Below, in pieces: positions 13,195-47,796 of a stretch of DNA of 47,796 nucleotides. Position numbers and translations under genes: made by a program. The stretch is from Acidobacteriaceae bacterium (lineage in GTDB: Bacteria; Acidobacteriota; Terriglobia; Terriglobales; Acidobacteriaceae), in assembly GCA_003131585.1 (NCBI GenBank), contig PKVW01000031.1, positions 1-47,796 on the forward strand, written 5' to 3'. Each line of letters opens with the position of its first letter. Position 1 is the stretch's first letter. Below the pieces are notes generated by a model. The model saw only the letters and a program-made list of their open reading frames with translations, made no database searches and had not been told where the DNA came from.

Positions 13195-14634
13195 TTAAGC
13201 TTCGATCGCGGTCACCCCAACTCTCTCCATCCACCCGCCAAATTCTCGGAGCGCCAACTCGCACTGCAACCGGTGCCGTTCCTTCCGATCGCGAATCTTT
13301 TTCTCCAACGCCGGCAAGAGATCGAAAGTAATGTTCGCCGGCTGGAAGTTCTTCGCGTCTGCATGGGTCACATAATGGGTCAGCGATCCGAATGCGGAAG
13401 CCCGTGGCGGCGGCACAATCTCATCTCCACGCACTAAAGACGCAGCGTGCAGTCCAGCCGTCAACCCGGTTGCAATCGACTCCACGTAGCCCTCCACGCC
13501 GCAAATCTGTCCCGCGAAGAAAATCCGGGGATGCGCTTTCATCTGCAGCGTCTCGCGCAGCAACGCGGGCCCGTTGATATACGTATTGCGATGAATCTGT
13601 CCGAAGCGCAGGAAGCGCGCATTCTCCAGCCCGGGAATCAGACGCAACACCCGCGCCTGCTCTCCAAACCTCAAATGATTCTGGAATCCCACCAGGTTGT
13701 AAGAATCCGCCCGCAGATTCTCCTGCCGCAACTGCACCACCGCATAGGGCATCCGCCCGGTGCGCGGATCCTTCAACCCCACCGGCTTCATCGGCCCAAA
13801 GCGCAACGTATCGCGTCCGCGCAGCGCAATCTCCTCAATCGGCAGGCAGCTCTCGAAATAGTTCAACTTCTCCCAATCGCGCTCCTCGACTGGCTGAGCC
13901 GCGAGAAGCGCGTCGTAGAACCGGCCGTAATCTTCCGGCGTCATCGGGCAGTTAATGTAATCGGCCGACCCCTTGTCATACCGCGCCGCCATATACACGC
14001 GCGCCATGTCGATCGAGTCCGCCTCCACAATCGGGCTGATCGAATCGTAGAAATACAGATGTGGACTGCGGTTCTCATGTTCCTGGAGATTCCCTGATTT
14101 TGGGTGGCGCAGTGCTTCTAGCGCTACGGTATCAGCTATATGTTGAGAAGCGGCTTTAGCCGCCGAGGTCGATAGGCCGGCACTCAGCCGCGCAATCTCC
14201 GTAGCCAGCGCTTCCGATGTCAGAGGCCCGGTGGCAATAATGGTGATGTCCCGTTCTTCGATCCGCGTCACCTCTTCGCGCCGCACCGTAATTCGCGGCT
14301 CCTGCGAAATCGCCTTCGTCACCTTCGCGGCAAACGTCACCCGATCCACCGCCAGCGCATGCCCCGCCGGAACCGCGCACTCCCGCGCAATCTGCAGCAG
14401 CAGCGATCCCGCCCGCCGCATTTCTTCCTTCAACAGCCACGGAGCTGTATTCTCGCTGTCCGACTTTAGCGAATTCGAGCACACCAGCTCCGCAAAATGC
14501 GCTGTCTGGTGCGCCGGCGTCGAGCGCGCCGGCCGCATTTCAAACAACTCCACCTCTATGCCTCGGCGCGCGCACTGCCACGCCGCCTCCGATCCAGCCA
14601 GCCCAGCTCCGATAATGCGAATTCGCGAGCTCAC
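13195..14634 (-). CDS. trmFO: Folate/FAD-dependent tRNA (uracil-54-C5)-methyltransferase
   Basis: Makes ribothymidine at position 54 of tRNA using methylenetetrahydrofolate and FAD. The FAD-binding IIGAGLAGSEAA is at residues 7-18, and FEMRPARSTPAHQT follows. Conserved cysteines lie in LVCSNSLKSD (near residue 52) and FESCLPIEEIA. GTG 14634 is preferred over ATG 14667 because AGAAGG lies 7 nt upstream of it and the FAD fold starts right after. Between ATEIARLSAG (to about residue 151) and HLYFYDSISPIVEADSID there is an extra segment of about 38 residues that is not usual for TrmFO. Its DNA (14065-14181) contains a palindromic repeat (see findings). Confidence 0.93.
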   Translation of the reverse strand: MSSRIRIIGAGLAGSEAAWQCARRGIEVELFEMRPARSTPAHQTAHFAELVCSNSLKSDSENTAPWLLKEEMRRAGSLLLQIARECAVPAGHALAVDRVTFAAKVTKAISQEPRITVRREEVTRIEERDITIIATGPLTSEALATEIARLSAGLSTSAAKAASQHIADTVALEALRHPKSGNLQEHENRSPHLYFYDSISPIVEADSIDMARVYMAARYDKGSADYINCPMTPEDYGRFYDALLAAQPVEERDWEKLNYFESCLPIEEIALRGRDTLRFGPMKPVGLKDPRTGRMPYAVVQLRQENLRADSYNLVGFQNHLRFGEQARVLRLIPGLENARFLRFGQIHRNTYINGPALLRETLQMKAHPRIFFAGQICGVEGYVESIATGLTAGLHAASLVRGDEIVPPPRASAFGSLTHYVTHADAKNFQPANITFDLLPALEKKIRDRKERHRLQCELALREFGGWMERVGVTAIEA

Positions 14635-14813
14635 GATGAAGCCTTCTCCGCCGCTCCGATAACACAAAGATCCAACTCGCGTTCAAACTCCGCCAGTTCG
14701 CGAATCTACAGCGCCGTCACGTCATCGATTCGTGGCAGGACGAATCAGGAGCATCAGGGGAAGAATACAGCAGTGATCTGTGACTGGGATCGTTAGGCCG
14801 CCGATGAACCGCC

Positions 14814-18511: not shown

Positions 18512-19093
18512 CTGGCTGGCATCTTACCGGATCACGGTTTGACGATTGGGAAAGACGCGGCTTCAAACGCTTGCGCGGCTAGACCTTGCTCGGCGAACCC
18601 GGTGTCCGGAGCCTGCCCTGAGCGAAATCGGGCGGTTCAGTCTCGCGGCCCGCCGGGCTGAATCAAGGCTGGCACCGGCTCATCGCAGTCCTTTCAATAG
18701 CTTCTGGATAAGTTCAACAAGTTACAAACAATTTCAACGACTTGCAGAGAATTTCGCATTAGGAGCGATTTAAGCCTCGTCCAGCCCGTGGACGACCTTG
18801 GGATCGATCTGAGCATTCGAACGCGCTCATGGGCCAATTCCGTGCGCTCCAGAGGCATCCTGCGCGCGATTCTACCGGCGGTCGAGGCCAATGTATCCGT
18901 AAGCCCTTTGCCTTTTGTCAACAAGTTACGGATCGCACGATGAAAACAAACGACATCGCGCAGCCTCCCAGAGCCTATGAATTCGGCCGCTTTTGTTTTC
19001 AATAGCTTGCAGATAAGTACTTGAAAACACGCGCTCTTTTGCTCAAGAGCGCCCGACTTGCGCACACTCGATCTGGCTTTTACTCTTCCACGC
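18512..19093. other. 580-bp repeat-containing gap upstream of selB
   Basis: It contains a CCTGAGCGAAATCGGGCGG stretch near 18615 that resembles a scattered repeat also seen at about 43350 (reverse orientation), then a degenerate 20-bp tandem array (18693-18770) and another copy of its first unit at 18998-19017. No gene with convincing codon use was found; a 168-codon minus-strand ORF (18694-19200) covers the repeats and is probably spurious. Confidence 0.6.
18693..18770. repeat. Degenerate 20-bp tandem array
   Basis: Units begin at exactly 20-bp spacing at 18693, 18713, 18733 and 18753, each starting with TTC (TTCAATAGCTTCTGGATAAG is the first; the second and third begin TTCAAC). The first unit recurs at 18998-19017 (TTCAATAGCTTGCAGATAAG, 17 of 20 identical), and a related TCAATAGCTTACGGGTAAA occurs at 8118-8136. 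Confidence 0.7.
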
Positions 19094-19787: not shown

Positions 19788-22343
19788 ATGACCACCTCCA
19801 TGACTTCTGCCTTCCCTCCGGAGACTCTCCGGCAGCACGGCCTCACTTTCGACGAATATGAAAAGATCAAGCGGCTTCTCGGAGAGCGCGAGCCCACGCT
19901 TACCGAGCTTGGCATCTTCAGCGTGATGTGGAGCGAGCACTGTTCCTACAAGTCGTCGCGCGTGCATCTGAAGCGTCTGCCCACGCGCAGCAAGCTCGTA
20001 CTGCAAGGGCCGGGAGAGAATGCAGGCATCATCGACATCGGCGATGGCTGGGCCTGCGCTTTCAAGATCGAGTCGCACAATCACCCCTCGTTCATCGAGC
20101 CGTTTCAAGGCGCAACCACCGGCGTGGGTGGAATCCTGCGCGATATCTTCACCATGGGCGCAAGACCGGTCGCGGTGATGGACTCGCTGCGCTTTGGGCC
20201 GATCACAACTCCTGTGGGAACGGCCGCCCCCGGCCGTTCGGCCGAGCGAAGCTCGGCTGCCTCTGGCACTGACGGGAAGGAAGTGCATCGCAATCACTCC
20301 ATCCTCGAAGGCGTGGTCAGCGGCGTCGCTTCCTACGGCAACTGCTTCGGCGTGCCCAACCTGGGCGGCGAAACGAAGTTCGAGCCGTGCTACTCCGGCA
20401 ACCCGATGGTGAACGCTTTCGCCATGGGACTGGTTCGCAAGGATGAGATCTTCTTTGCGCGCGCCGCCGGCGAAGGCAATCCGGTGATCTACGTTGGCGC
20501 TAAGACCGGACGCGACGGCATCCACGGGGCCACGATGGCGAGCGAGGAGTTCAGCGAGGCTTCGGAAGCAAAGCGGCCAAACGTGCAGGTCGGCGATCCG
20601 TTTCTGGAGAAGTTGCTGCTCGAAGCCTGCCTCGAAGTTATGCAGACCGGAGCCGGCGCTGTTATTGGCATTCAAGATATGGGCGCCGCGGGACTTACCT
20701 GTTCGACCTGCGAAATGGGCGCGCGCGGCAGTGTCGGCATCGAGATTGAACTTGATTGCGTGCCCCAGCGCGAAACCGGCATGACTCCTTACGAAATCAT
20801 GCTGAGCGAGTCGCAGGAGCGCATGCTGCTGGTGGCGCAGAAAGGCCGCGAAGAGGAAGTCTTCCAGGTTTTCGAGAAGTGGGGGCTCGATGCGGTGGAA
20901 ATCGGCAAGGTCACGAGCGACAACCAGTTGCGCGTGCTTCAGCACGGCGAAGTCGTTGCCGAGATTCCGAATCGAGCGCTTACCGACGATGCGCCCGTGT
21001 ACAAACGTCCGCTGGCGCGCTGGGAGCCGCCCGTGCCGCGCGAAATGCCGGGACACATCAAACTGGGAAGCGCGACAGTTCGGGAAGGGCACGACTTAAG
21101 TCGTGCCGTAAAAGGCTCCGAGCGGAATGCGGCTTTAGCCGCTGAGGCCCGCGTACCTCAGGGGCTAAAGCCCTCATCGTTAACTCCATCTGATGGCACG
21201 GCTGAAGCCGTGCCCTTCCCGAACTCGTCCCAGGACAGAGCTGCAGTCGACCTCACACCGCATCTGAAGCAGCTTCTGGCCAGCCCGAACATCTGCGGCA
21301 AGCGCTGGGTGTGGCAGCAATACGATCACATGGTGCAGACCAACACGGTGGAAGCGCCAGGAGCGGGCGATGCGGGCGTGATCCGCATCAAGAATCCGAA
21401 TCCAGACTCGCCGCAGCGCGGTCTCGCGATGGCGCTCGATGGCAACAGCCGCTGGTGCTATCTCGATCCGCGGCTGGGTGCGATGCATGCCGTCGCCGAG
21501 GCCGCGCGCAAGGTGGCGTGTTCGGGCGCAACTCCCGTGGGCGCTACCAATTGCCTCAACTTCGGCAATCCCGAGAAGCCGCACATTATGTGGCAGTTCT
21601 CGCAAACCATCGATGGCATCACCAAAGCCTGCGAGGAGTTGGAGATTCCCATCACCGGCGGCAACGTGAGCTTTTACAACGAGACGCTGGGCGAGGCTAT
21701 TTATCCCACGCCGGTGCTGGGAGTGGTGGGGATTCTCGACGACGTGCGCAAAACCGCGAAGATGCATTTTGCCGCGCCCGGACGCACGGTCGTGCTATTG
21801 CGCGCGGGCGAAGCGGCCGATATCACCGATGTGGAGAGTGAATTCGGGTCGTCGGAATACGCAAAAGAAATTCTGGCCGCGCTGTGGGGATATCCTCCGG
21901 AACTCGATCTGGAGAAAGAAGCCGCGCTGCAGCGGGCGGTTATCGGACTGATTCAGCAGGGCTTGGTGGAATCCGTGCATGACTGTTCGGATGGTGGATT
22001 GGCCGTGGCGCTGGCGGAAAAGGCATTCGCGAAAAACGTGGGTGCGCGAGTGAATCTCGCGTCGAACGGGCTTCCCGCGGAGTTTGCGCTGTTTGGCGAG
22101 GATGCGAGCCGCATCATACTCTCTTGCGACCCGGGAAACGTTGCGCGAATCCAACAGATAGCGGAGAAACACGGGATCGCCGGGGATGTGCTGGGAGAAA
22201 CGATTCCGGAACGGCTGGAGATTTCGCTCGACGGGCGGGTGGTTGTATCGGCGCCGGTTTATGACCTTAGCGTTGGGTATGAAACTGCTTTGGAATCGGC
22301 GCTGCGGGCGGACCCGGAAGGGATAGCGCCAACGGAATGCTAA
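19788..22343 (+). CDS. purL: Phosphoribosylformylglycinamidine synthase subunit PurL
   Basis: The synthetase subunit that converts FGAR to FGAM with ammonia from PurQ and help from PurS in purine synthesis. Motifs [56 protein letters not shown] and [10 protein letters not shown] are typical of the short, PurQ/PurS-dependent form. At 851 residues it is longer than the usual 720-760. Two extra segments explain this: about residues 143-166 (20216-20283) and residues 431-479 (21078-21224), the latter a 147-bp palindromic repeat read in frame. Flanking conserved blocks ([12 protein letters not shown] and [15 protein letters not shown]) resume without a frameshift, so the protein is probably functional. 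purF overlaps its end by 7 nt. Confidence 0.94.
21078..21224. repeat. 147-bp composite palindromic element inserted in frame in purL
   Basis: The ends are a perfect 16-bp inverted repeat (GTTCGGGAAGGGCACG at 21078-21093 and its complement at 21209-21224). Inside are GGCACGACTTAAGTCGTGCC (21088-21107), GCGGCTTTAGCCGC followed by TGAGG, its inverted partner CCTCAGGGGCTAAAGCC, and GGCACGGCTGAAGCCGTGCC. The length is exactly 49 codons and the frame contains no stop. Related modules occur at 34448-34467, 37307-37361, 14065-14181 and 47656-47796. Confidence 0.85.
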
Positions 22344-34328: not shown

Positions 34329-34447
34329 CCGCTACCGCCCAATAAGGATGCGGGCTTCAGTCCCGGAGGAGTCTGTGTCATAGCTTGGATTTCATTTTTA
34401 CAGTGGAACAAACTGCATCCGAGTCGCGCAGCGACGGCATTCATTAG

Positions 34448-34467
34448 CCCCGCACGTAAGTGCGGGG
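34448..34467. repeat. Intergenic palindrome CCCCGCAC-GTAA-GTGCGGGG with neighbours
   Basis: A perfect 8-bp inverted repeat with a GTAA loop lies between the permease and der genes. Next to it are GTCGCGCAGCGAC (34423-34435) and GGGCTTCAGTCCC (34352-34364), hairpin modules similar in style to those inside purL and the helicase gene. It could also act as a bidirectional terminator between the convergent genes. Confidence 0.6.
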
Positions 34468-36051: not shown

Positions 36052-38193
36052 ATGTTTATTATAGAGACTCCCGTGGCTTTAGGTTCCCAACCCGTGTCTC
36101 CGTCAACGCCAAGTCGCTCGGCACCCGGCGGAAACAAAGCATCTCTCCATCAATTCTTCGCGCCCGGAGGAGTGCTGGCGCGCACGCATCCCGCGTATGA
36201 GTTCCGGCGCGGGCAGTTGCAGATGGCGCAGGCTGTCGAGCAGGCGCTGGAGGAAAAGCGGCACCTGATTGTGGAAGCCGGTACAGGCACGGGAAAGACG
36301 CTGGCCTACCTGATGCCGGTGATCCGCTCGGGCAAGCGGGTGATCATCTCGACGGGCACGAAGAATTTGCAGGAACAACTTTTCTACAAGGACATACCTT
36401 TCCTGGAGCAGGCGCTGTTTGGCGCAACCGGCGGCAAAACAGAAACAAGCCGCCGTCTTTCCGTCTGCTACATGAAGGGGCGCAACAATTATTTGTGCCG
36501 CAAGAAGCTCTACGATCTTACCGATCAGCCGGTGCTGAGCGGGTTGGAGGAGATTGAACAATATCGCGCGATTGCCGCGTGGGAGAAGACGACCGGAACC
36601 GGCGACCGTGCGGAACTTGCCGAGCTTCCCGAGACCAGCGCGCTCTGGCACAAGATCGATGCGCGCTCGGAGGCGTGCATCGGACAGAAGTGCAGCGAGT
36701 GGGAGCGCTGCTTCATTACCGAAATGCGCCGGCGCGGGATGGAGAGCGACATTATTATCGTCAATCATCATTTGTTCTTCGCCGATCTCGCCATTAAGCT
36801 GCAGGCCGAAGGCGCGCCCGATGCGGGCATCCTGCCGGATGCGGCGGCGGTGATTTTCGATGAAGCGCACGAACTGGAGGATGTGGCGGGGAACTATTTC
36901 GGAATCTCCGTGAGCAACCTGCGCGTGGAGGATCTGGCGCGGGACGTCGAGGTGTCGCTGCAACATAACCGGATGCTTTCGGCGTCGCTTTCCGGAGCGC
37001 TGGGGAGTTTGCGGGAGCGGTCACAGTTCTTCTTTTCGCTTTTGCCGCCGGGCGAGGGACGCTTTGCGTTTGAGTCACGGCGGGAGTTTCTGGAAGAAAA
37101 CGGCGACGAGTTCCTCGCGCTCAATCAGGCGTTGACGCGGCTGGCGGGCGAACTCGAAGCCCTGCCGCAGAAGCCCGAGGAAATTTTCAACTTCGTGCGG
37201 CGAGCGCAGGAGATCCAGGTGCAACTGGGTTTCGCCATGGAGTCGGACGATCGCAACACAGTGTTTTGGATCGAGCGGCGCGGCGGCCGGGGAAGCGCTC
37301 GGGAAGGGCACGGCTTCAGCCGTGCCGAAAGGCAGCATCCCGGGAAGGGGGCTTCAGCCCCTGGGGGCAATGCTCGCGGAAGGCAAAACGTTTTCTTGCA
37401 GGCCACCCCTATCGACGTCGGCCCTATCCTGCGCGAGTGCCTTTGGTCGAAACTGGAGTGCGCGGTGCTGACTTCGGCGACGCTCGCCGTGGGCGGAGAG
37501 TTCGAATACATCCGGCAGCGGCTGGGATTGGAGCATGCGCGCGAGTCGGTGCTGCCTTCGCACTTCGACTATGAAAATCAGGCGTTGTTTTACGTGCCCC
37601 CCGATTTGCCCGATGCGCGGACGCCACAGTTCACGGCGAAGGCGGCGGAGCGCATTCGCCAGCTGCTCGCGATTACCCGCGGGCGCGCCTTCGTGCTCTT
37701 CACCAGCTATGCGCAGATGAATGACATTTACCAGCGGTTGCTGGGGGAGTTGGAGTTCCCCATGCTGCGGCAGGGCGACGCACCCAAGAGCGCGCTGCTC
37801 GAGGAGTTCCGGCTGACGCCGAATGCGGTGCTGTTTGCGACTTCGTCGTTCTGGCAGGGCGTGGACGTACAGGGCGAGCAGTTGAGTTGCGTCATCATCG
37901 ATCGCCTGCCGTTTGCGGTGCCCAGCGATCCAGTTGTCGCCGCGCGCGTGAAAGCGATTGACGCCGATGGAGGCAACGCGTTTTTTCAATACCAAGTGCC
38001 GGCGGCGGTGATTACGCTGAAACAAGGCTTCGGACGCCTGATCCGGTCGCTGCACGACCGCGGCTTGCTGGTGCTGCTCGATAATCGCATTCTCAAGAAG
38101 CAGTACGGACGCGTGTTCATCGAGAGCCTGCCGAATTATAAGAAGACTACCGAGATGCGGGTGGTGGAGGAGTTCTTCGGAGTCGGTGAATGA
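36052..38193 (+). CDS. DinG/XPD-type ATP-dependent DNA helicase
   Basis: A superfamily 2, 5'-3' helicase of the DinG family, acting in replication and repair. Visible: RRGQLQMAQAVEQAL (Q-motif region), VEAGTGTGKTLAYLMP (Walker A), FDEAHELEDVAGN (DEAH box), and four cysteines (C146?, C189-C194, C199 region: YLCRKK, EACIGQKCSEWERC) that fit the [4Fe-4S] domain. Helicase C-terminal motifs are FVLFTSYAQMND, ATSSFWQGVDVQGEQLSCVIIDRLPFAVP and KQGFGRLIR. About residues 410-445 form an inserted Gly/Arg-rich segment ([16 protein letters not shown]...) coded by a palindromic repeat. A promoter-like CTGACA..TATAGA overlaps the ATG, so the real start may be a GTG at 36073. Confidence 0.92.
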   Translation: MFIIETPVALGSQPVSPSTPSRSAPGGNKASLHQFFAPGGVLARTHPAYEFRRGQLQMAQAVEQALEEKRHLIVEAGTGTGKTLAYLMPVIRSGKRVIISTGTKNLQEQLFYKDIPFLEQALFGATGGKTETSRRLSVCYMKGRNNYLCRKKLYDLTDQPVLSGLEEIEQYRAIAAWEKTTGTGDRAELAELPETSALWHKIDARSEACIGQKCSEWERCFITEMRRRGMESDIIIVNHHLFFADLAIKLQAEGAPDAGILPDAAAVIFDEAHELEDVAGNYFGISVSNLRVEDLARDVEVSLQHNRMLSASLSGALGSLRERSQFFFSLLPPGEGRFAFESRREFLEENGDEFLALNQALTRLAGELEALPQKPEEIFNFVRRAQEIQVQLGFAMESDDRNTVFWIERRGGRGSAREGHGFSRAERQHPGKGASAPGGNARGRQNVFLQATPIDVGPILRECLWSKLECAVLTSATLAVGGEFEYIRQRLGLEHARESVLPSHFDYENQALFYVPPDLPDARTPQFTAKAAERIRQLLAITRGRAFVLFTSYAQMNDIYQRLLGELEFPMLRQGDAPKSALLEEFRLTPNAVLFATSSFWQGVDVQGEQLSCVIIDRLPFAVPSDPVVAARVKAIDADGGNAFFQYQVPAAVITLKQGFGRLIRSLHDRGLLVLLDNRILKKQYGRVFIESLPNYKKTTEMRVVEEFFGVGE
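37299..37380. repeat. Palindromic repeat inserted in frame in the helicase gene
   Basis: GGCACGGCTTCAGCCGTGCC (37307-37326) is a near-perfect palindrome and GGGGCTTCAGCCCC (37348-37361) a second. CGGGAAGGGCACG (37300-37312) is identical to part of the 16-bp terminal repeat of the purL element. The conserved helicase blocks WIERRGG and NVFLQATPIDVGPILREC stand on either side. Confidence 0.8.
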
Positions 38194-43288: not shown

Positions 43289-43389
43289 CGCCGACAGTCC
43301 CGGCGGCTGTCCAGCGGGCGGCCCGGCCGCGACCGGGCCGGCGAAACCCTTCGGCTTCGCTCAGGGCAGGCCGCTGGCGCTACTCACAA

Positions 43390-47589: not shown

Positions 47590-47796
47590 GTTTTGAAAAG
47601 GCACGGCTGTTTTGAAAGGGCACGCCTGTTTTGAAAGGGACGGCTGTTTTGAAAGGGCACGGCTTCAGCCGTGCCGTAAAGTCCCCAAACCAAAGCGGCT
47701 TCAGCCGCTAAGGGACGCAAAGCATGGGCCGAATACTTCAGGTGCCGCAAAGCGAAACCCGGTTAGTATCAGGGCATCGCGTCAGCGATGCCGTAA
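47590..47796. repeat. Tandem 19-bp repeats followed by palindromic modules
   Basis: Four units beginning GTTTTGAAA lie at 47590, 47609, 47628 and 47646 (19, 19, 18, 19 bp; GTTTTGAAAGGGCACGGCT is the commonest form). The last runs into the palindrome GGCACGGCTTCAGCCGTGCC plus GTAAA (47657-47681). GCGGCTTCAGCCGC (47696-47709) and GGCATCGCGTCAGCGATGCC plus GTAA (about 47772-47795) follow. This is an intergenic relative of the elements inside purL and the helicase gene. It reaches the window edge. Confidence 0.8.

Follow-up and report, generated by a model that had tools for sequence, protein, structure and literature searches.

Palindromes inserted in frame into many proteins of Rickettsia, the Rickettsia palindromic elements (RPEs), show that a coding sequence can tolerate a repeat, and a 147-bp palindrome lying in frame inside purL of a soil bacterium of the Acidobacteriaceae raises the questions of what moves such a repeat and how it enters a core enzyme. 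The palindrome lies in contig PKVW01000031.1 of assembly GCA_003131585.1, of which the whole stretch of 47,796 nucleotides was analyzed (here, the window; the genome as a whole is G000). An initial annotation, made from the letters of the window, had likened the palindrome to RPEs and proposed a protein-invading repeat family of Acidobacteriota. We find that the insert is built of two copies of a repeat unit, R1, and that R1 is very probably the terminal inverted repeat (TIR), and the presumed single-stranded DNA recognition site, of one clade of repetitive extragenic palindromic (REP)-associated tyrosine transposases (RAYTs; HUH, Y1), the purL copy being two such ends. Because R1 forms the ends of RAYT elements of the L064 type, described below, the purL insert is a transposase-less TIRtron, one of the many genome copies of a small transposon family.

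The insert measures 147 nucleotides, or 49 codons, and holds no stop in the frame of the purL open reading frame (ORF), as had been claimed. Its terminal inverted repeats are perfect, as reported, but they are not 16 bp long: the exact arms measure 17 nt, with 21077-21093 pairing with 21209-21225. The pairing of its inner modules with each other was confirmed. Exact arms of at least 16 nt within 200 nt were found nowhere else in the window, and 50 order-1 Markov copies of it yielded no such pair. Hairpins of single-stranded DNA are the substrate of RAYT-class enzymes; folded in that form, the insert reaches −50.5 kcal/mol (z = −9.8), a value equaled by 0 of 200 shuffles. It consists of two 67-nt, two-hairpin R1 units with the tag GGGAAG that face inward, and it is the sole inward-facing pair no more than 150 bp apart among 149 scored R1 matches in the genome. 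One trait of miniature inverted-repeat transposable elements, terminal inverted repeats without a transposase, is found in R1 for the purL dimer only. The intergenic copy reported to carry like modules in like order is also an R1 unit, of a second subfamily (Table 1).

R1 opens with a 5' tag, followed by an 8-bp hairpin with a TTCA loop, about 21 nt, a 4- to 5-bp hairpin with a TTTA loop, and CTGAGG. A model of 67 positions, with cmsearch matches accepted to E 1, matched 149 of the 150 candidates scored (from 2516 candidates), so that this genome holds at least 149 copies: 43 with GGGAAG-like tags, 35 TATCAG-like, 29 TGAAAG-like, and 42 others that include TGGAAG and GGGTGG. The true number is probably higher, because R1 units sit at or close to the ends of several contigs (C8, C18, C21, C31, C41, C42, C43, C60, C64, and C73). 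Two-sided changes occur at 7 of 12 stem pairs, as many as were reached by 0 of 500 shuffles, in a sample biased toward pairing because its units were picked for their hairpins. A GTAG or CGTC tetranucleotide does not mark the end of R1, the commonest tags being GGGAAG, TATCAG, TGAAAG, TGGAAG, and GGGTGG. Nor does R1 occur mainly as inverted pairs in the manner of REPINs, since only one of the 9 neighboring pairs among the 149 copies is inverted.

Evidence for the transposase comes from the loci that R1 borders. There are 14 Y1_Tnp matches in this genome. L064 encodes a RAYT (NF047646, 105 bits, cut-off 80) flanked by R1 on both sides, with the far unit facing outward and cut by the contig end, and relatives of this type match in 67 of the 80 genomes of the family. 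In a sample of 30 loci, one top match per genome, an inward-facing R1 adjoins the transposase gene at all 30 (within 200/250 bp) and on both sides at 23, mostly across a gap of 9 to 70 bp; these counts use 89 of 103 R1 rows, and the 14 left out, being weak or far, cannot lower them. At 30 control loci of another clade, the L060 type, no inward-facing adjacent R1 was found. Four R1 matches turned up at the control loci, three of them in one locus more than 1 kb off and the fourth marginal (E 0.0064), outward facing, and beside the gene. Three further RAYTs of this genome (L060, L063, and L065) are accompanied by inverted repeats of their own, unlike R1. A tree of 53 proteins, in which the bootstrap had not fully settled, splits the L064-type and control clades at 99/95 and groups three TATCAG-tagged RAYTs at 94/95. 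Within an element, the left and right R1 ends are of one subtype. Catalytic motifs are kept in the aligned members of the L064 clade (HxH in 15/15, the Y of Y..NP in 14/15). The full element, R1, RAYT gene, and inverted R1, is 584 bp long in G033. R1 elements thus have the makeup of TIRtrons, with inverted ends around a RAYT-like gene, here an HUH-Y1 RAYT, and many copies have no transposase. One locus in G032 (L385) holds, beside its RAYT, several R1 units in the same orientation (starts at 2213, 2370, 2507, 2643, and 2777) in a tandem-like cluster.

R1 might instead serve mainly in regulation, as an RNA or DNA element such as a terminator or mRNA stabilizer that is selected and copied by recombination and lands in genes by accident. 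Most copies do lie outside coding sequence by codon score, and the stems covary, but inward, adjacent placement at every fetched L064-type RAYT and the matching end subtypes speak for transposon ends, and no Rfam family matches the R1 copies in the window (13900-47796). We consider a chiefly regulatory R1 quite improbable; a regulatory role may exist alongside mobility.

Several observations weigh against the assignment of R1 to RAYT elements. We infer, rather than observe, R1 movement, target choice, and junction chemistry. No clear target-site duplication appeared when purL was compared by eye with that of the same-genus genome G006, a comparison that leaves about 27 to 30 nt of extra sequence outside the palindrome. 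A correlation between R1 and Y1 counts across the 80 genomes (Spearman rho 0.58) speaks for the assignment, but the test ignores genome size, completeness, and ancestry, and its high R1 counts are lower bounds. Three genomes are rich in R1 (G034 with 53, G035 with at least 64, and G067 with 41), and Y1, L064-type, and L060-type searches of them gave no match; either the RAYT was lost or another mobilizer acts there. The only GGGAAG-subfamily element with a transposase seen in G000 is a relic without the HUH half, which suggests that this subfamily, the one found in genes, is no longer self-sufficient in this genome. Among relatives, only 1 of 70 R1 matches (in BshB1 of G075) is strictly in frame, the 70 being the best ranked of the matches listed and not a random sample.

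Whether the purL segment is an insertion can be read from relatives. PurL is present in 77 of the 80 family genomes, this one included, and the matched flanks are 2 to 6 residues apart in 29 of 29 fetched family relatives, among them G006 PurL (87 to 89% identical), and 59 apart in this genome. The insert is likewise absent from the PurL proteins of G033, G034, and G043, which were read separately. Because the fetched relatives lack it, the segment is, on these alignments, a true insertion. The initial annotation had made relatives that carry the segment the finding that would overturn its insertion claim, and the claim survives; its proposed limits, residues 431 to 479, are too short, as the extra stretch runs from about 429 to 487, some 10 residues beyond the palindrome. 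Could the segment still be an ordinary variable loop in which the palindromes are coincidental? The site is naturally variable, and two unrelated PurL proteins have long linkers of other sequence there. Among 80 named bacterial PurLs from the matches listed, which include no close named relatives, the equivalent of residues 421 to 491 holds 0 to 18 residues in 76, 26 in two cyanobacteria, 63 in L176, and 104 in L223, compared with 69 here; the R1 model does not match the long linkers of L176 and L223. The 149 scored copies of the R1 DNA unit and the empty sites of relatives refute the ordinary loop, to which we give practically no credence.

The insert site is the linker joining the PurL halves and maps between residues 378 and 393 of Thermus thermophilus 3viu. 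An AlphaFold model of PurL (predicted TM score 0.87) has per-residue confidence (pLDDT) below 50 at residues 1-5, 144-160, 428-485, and 846-851 (stretches of at least 3 residues), so that the insert is predicted to be a disordered linker while the rest folds well save one other loop.

The host genes might also be pseudogenes, or the inserts assembly artifacts. The assembly is a draft in which several contigs begin or end in or near R1, and the autonomous GGGAAG copy looks dead. Nevertheless, frames stay open through about 10 different enzymes, PurL is modeled well around its insert, and an R1 unit lies in the same PurL linker of another genome, G051. The ratios of nonsynonymous to synonymous substitution (dN/dS) against G006, with gapped columns left out, are 0.11 for purL, 0.13 for tilS, and 0.06 for yoaA; being pairwise, they do not isolate the time since insertion. 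The host genes look functional, and decay or artifact is very improbable.

The R1 unit in G051 PurL bears another subtype tag, TTTGAAAG, and is a monomer. The two genomes might share one ancestral insertion that was lost in G006 and others. The common linker is consistent with this, as are the long yoaA linkers of G000, G006, and G051, but the subtypes differ (GGGAAG versus TTTGAAAG), a dimer stands against a monomer, and the PurL site is empty in G006. We regard a single insertion as unlikely; it opposes independent hits and not a RAYT origin. A second site in PurL, loop 1 (window 20218-20257, residues ~139 to 166), contains two further palindromes of other sequence; loop 1 of G051 PurL has a GCCGAGCTTCGCTCGGC palindrome and a CCCTTCGACTCCGCTCAGGG repeat (FDSAQGRLP), and that of "Candidatus Acidiferrum typicum" (L174 6430-6518) matches R1 weakly (E 5.7e-4) and may hold the remnant of an ancient insertion.

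R1 also occurs in other genes. Two in-gene units of the window that the initial annotation had missed lie in yoaA/dinG and trmFO (Table 1); the best NF003739 stretch of TrmFO aligns residues 201-482 with profile positions 154-437. The hosts in which both flanks of the unit carry family evidence are PurL, YoaA, TrmFO, TilS (two units), MoaA, HemD, HpnE, an Lhr helicase, a C26 peptidase, and an FAD-oxidase/Fe-S protein. DusB (L026) is a likely further host by its N-terminal part, which matches to residue 278; for the part past the insert, Pfam returned no match and the PDB none that was credible. TilS carries a third palindrome (GCAGCGCTGGAAGCGCTGC) between its two R1 units, at a place where the linkers of G006 and G051 are short, and by that comparison these units too represent a true insertion. 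The YoaA linker is short in 12 of 14 relatives and longer but palindrome-free in G006 and G051, so linker growth may have preceded the arrival of R1. R1 is read in several frames, giving varied peptides such as AARLKSCPS, and the peptide is therefore not kept in one form. Four candidate hosts were rejected: L093, where the unit seems to precede the rnc start codon; L069, an open frame without a Pfam match; L008, a heptosyltransferase whose unit falls at its extreme C terminus; and L067, an agmatine deiminase without the first 100 profile positions. At L067, R1 lies where the start of the gene is missing (1648-1715), and codon scores place the coding strand of one flank opposite to that of the other, which may mark the breakpoint of a rearrangement.

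Table 1. Coordinates in the window of purL, other host genes, and R1 units
Feature	Position	Strand	Details
purL	19788..22343	+	851 amino acids (aa); NF002290 over residues 19-837; insert modeled as disordered
Inverted pair of R1 units	21078..21224		147 bp, in frame in purL; codons 431-479
R1 unit, subfamily a (GGGAAG tag), purL	21082..21148	+	cmsearch 71.6 bits, E 8.7e-20
R1 unit, subfamily a, inverted, purL	21155..21220	-	cmsearch 75.2 bits, E 7.3e-21
yoaA/dinG-like DEAH helicase, second host gene	36052..38193	+	713 aa; NF053712, residues 34-709, 734 bits
R1 unit, subfamily a, in frame in yoaA	37301..37367	+	E 1.8e-19; strict in-frame call
trmFO, third host gene	13195..14667	-	490 aa; NF003739, two matched stretches
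Degenerate R1 unit (GGGTGG subtype) in trmFO, antisense to gene	14102..14169	+	E 2.4e-6
Intergenic R1 unit, subfamily b (TTTTGAAAG tag)	47650..47714	+	E 4.3e-20
R1 unit, TATCAG subtype, cut by window end	47767..47796	+	E 4.2e-6

Two further features of the window were recorded. A second palindromic family (CCCTTCGGCTTCGCTCAGGGCAGGC) occurs at 18611-18637 and 43345-43371, and sequence resembling it lies within hairpin 1 of the R1 unit G000:C62:58684-58773. An Acido-Lenti-1 small RNA (RF01687) scores 57.6 bits at 34422-34467.

Does R1 favor genes? By a codon-score caller trained on the window, which is blind to the FAD oxidase L007 and to genes that contain two inserts (TilS), 10 of 149 R1 copies are strictly in frame within coding sequence, whereas for 3000 random positions the share is 50.6%; without hits at contig edges, the count is 10 of 139 (p 2e-28). 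Those 10 calls include L093 and L069, which the list of ten hosts drops, and that list adds TilS, the FAD oxidase, and TrmFO, all invisible to the caller. Same-strand coding sequence lies on both sides of 14 units; the phase is kept across 11 of them (10 open, 1 interrupted by a stop) and lost across 3, and the excess of open, in-phase units has p 0.004 against one third. R1 itself is not unusually open, as 89 of 132 units are free of stops in 2 or 3 of the 6 frames. GGGAAG units are strictly in frame in 8 of 43 cases, versus 2 of 106 for the other tags (Fisher p 0.0008). Protein invasion by R1 is real but a minority fate, richest in this genome among those sampled. The likeness to RPEs accordingly holds, in that R1 recurs in frame in several unrelated proteins, but the idea of a family specialized in invading proteins does not, as R1 forms the ends of RAYT transposons and its in-gene copies are depleted.

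R1 is also narrower in distribution than had been proposed. Counting this genome, matches occur in 74 of the 80 genomes of the family and in 36 of 199 in a sample of the phylum, where strong scores are confined to the one family plus G204 and G259, so that "a repeat family of Acidobacteriota" is too wide; counts per genome at the upper end, about 64 and more, are lower bounds. Plasmid carriage was rejected, with no PLSDB match at the sensitivity used. A viral origin was likewise rejected; an exact 26-mer occurs in two viral contigs.

A RAYT of the L064 clade would move R1, as single ends or in pairs, by way of single-stranded DNA folded into hairpins, in keeping with the action on such hairpins described in excerpts of PMC6006769. 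Insertion would be roughly blind to genes, and selection would then purge most gene hits and spare in-frame, stop-free copies in flexible linkers. The purL copy would be two R1 ends from which the RAYT has gone, translated as a disordered peptide.

In-frame palindromes in proteins are already known from RPEs and intragenic REPs, as excerpts of PMC3733652 relate. The same excerpts describe TIRtrons, or TIR-associated tyrosine transposases (TIRYTs), as a RAYT-like gene between long TIRs, known in Acidobacteria including Koribacter versatilis, where the TIR of ORF1552 forms a repeated family. R1 resembles them in its inverted ends around a RAYT-like gene and in a repeat family built of those ends, and it differs from the TIRtrons so described in that its TIR copies are numerous and lie within proteins, the Koribacter TIR being compared by description only. 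Intragenic GTAG/CGTC REPs are reported there in frame in unrelated enzymes, more than half as dimers or groups coding 20 to 30 residues, with the GTAG class tied to RAYTs; in-gene copies are mentioned in those excerpts for GTAG/CGTC REPs only. R1 shares with them small hairpin repeats in frame in enzymes, but lacks such a tag and has a two-hairpin, 67-nt unit. The excerpts present RPEs as the Rickettsia case of palindromes in frame in many proteins; R1 behaves likewise and is set apart, by description, by an unrelated host and an identified transposase clade. QMITE1 of Coxiella, in the excerpted account of PMC5896051, is nonautonomous, with about 50 copies that often overlap annotated ORFs. 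R1 is similar in being a nonautonomous element that overlaps ORFs and dissimilar in belonging to HUH/Y1 transposases, direct repeats not being established for it. By title and the start of the abstract, the literature searched (mostly without subscription papers) contained no report of TIR-type RAYT ends inside proteins and none of such inserts in Acidobacteria.

Some linkers may have been hit repeatedly, by different R1 subfamilies and unrelated palindromes: the linker of PurL, filled in two genera, loop 1 of the same protein, and TilS, where three palindromes are stacked. We suggest tentatively that RAYT ends could act as a natural insertion scan of linkers and a steady source of new linker sequence in core enzymes, with GGGAAG the subfamily best able to enter genes or to persist there. 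TIR-type RAYT families can be productive, with at least 149 copies here, contrary to the impression given in the excerpts of PMC3733652. A protein-invading palindrome is now tied to its transposase clade through thirty loci, and empty and filled sites in core enzymes are at hand, so that a long-standing question can be put to the test: by what route mobile palindromes get into proteins, and whether they come to serve a function there.
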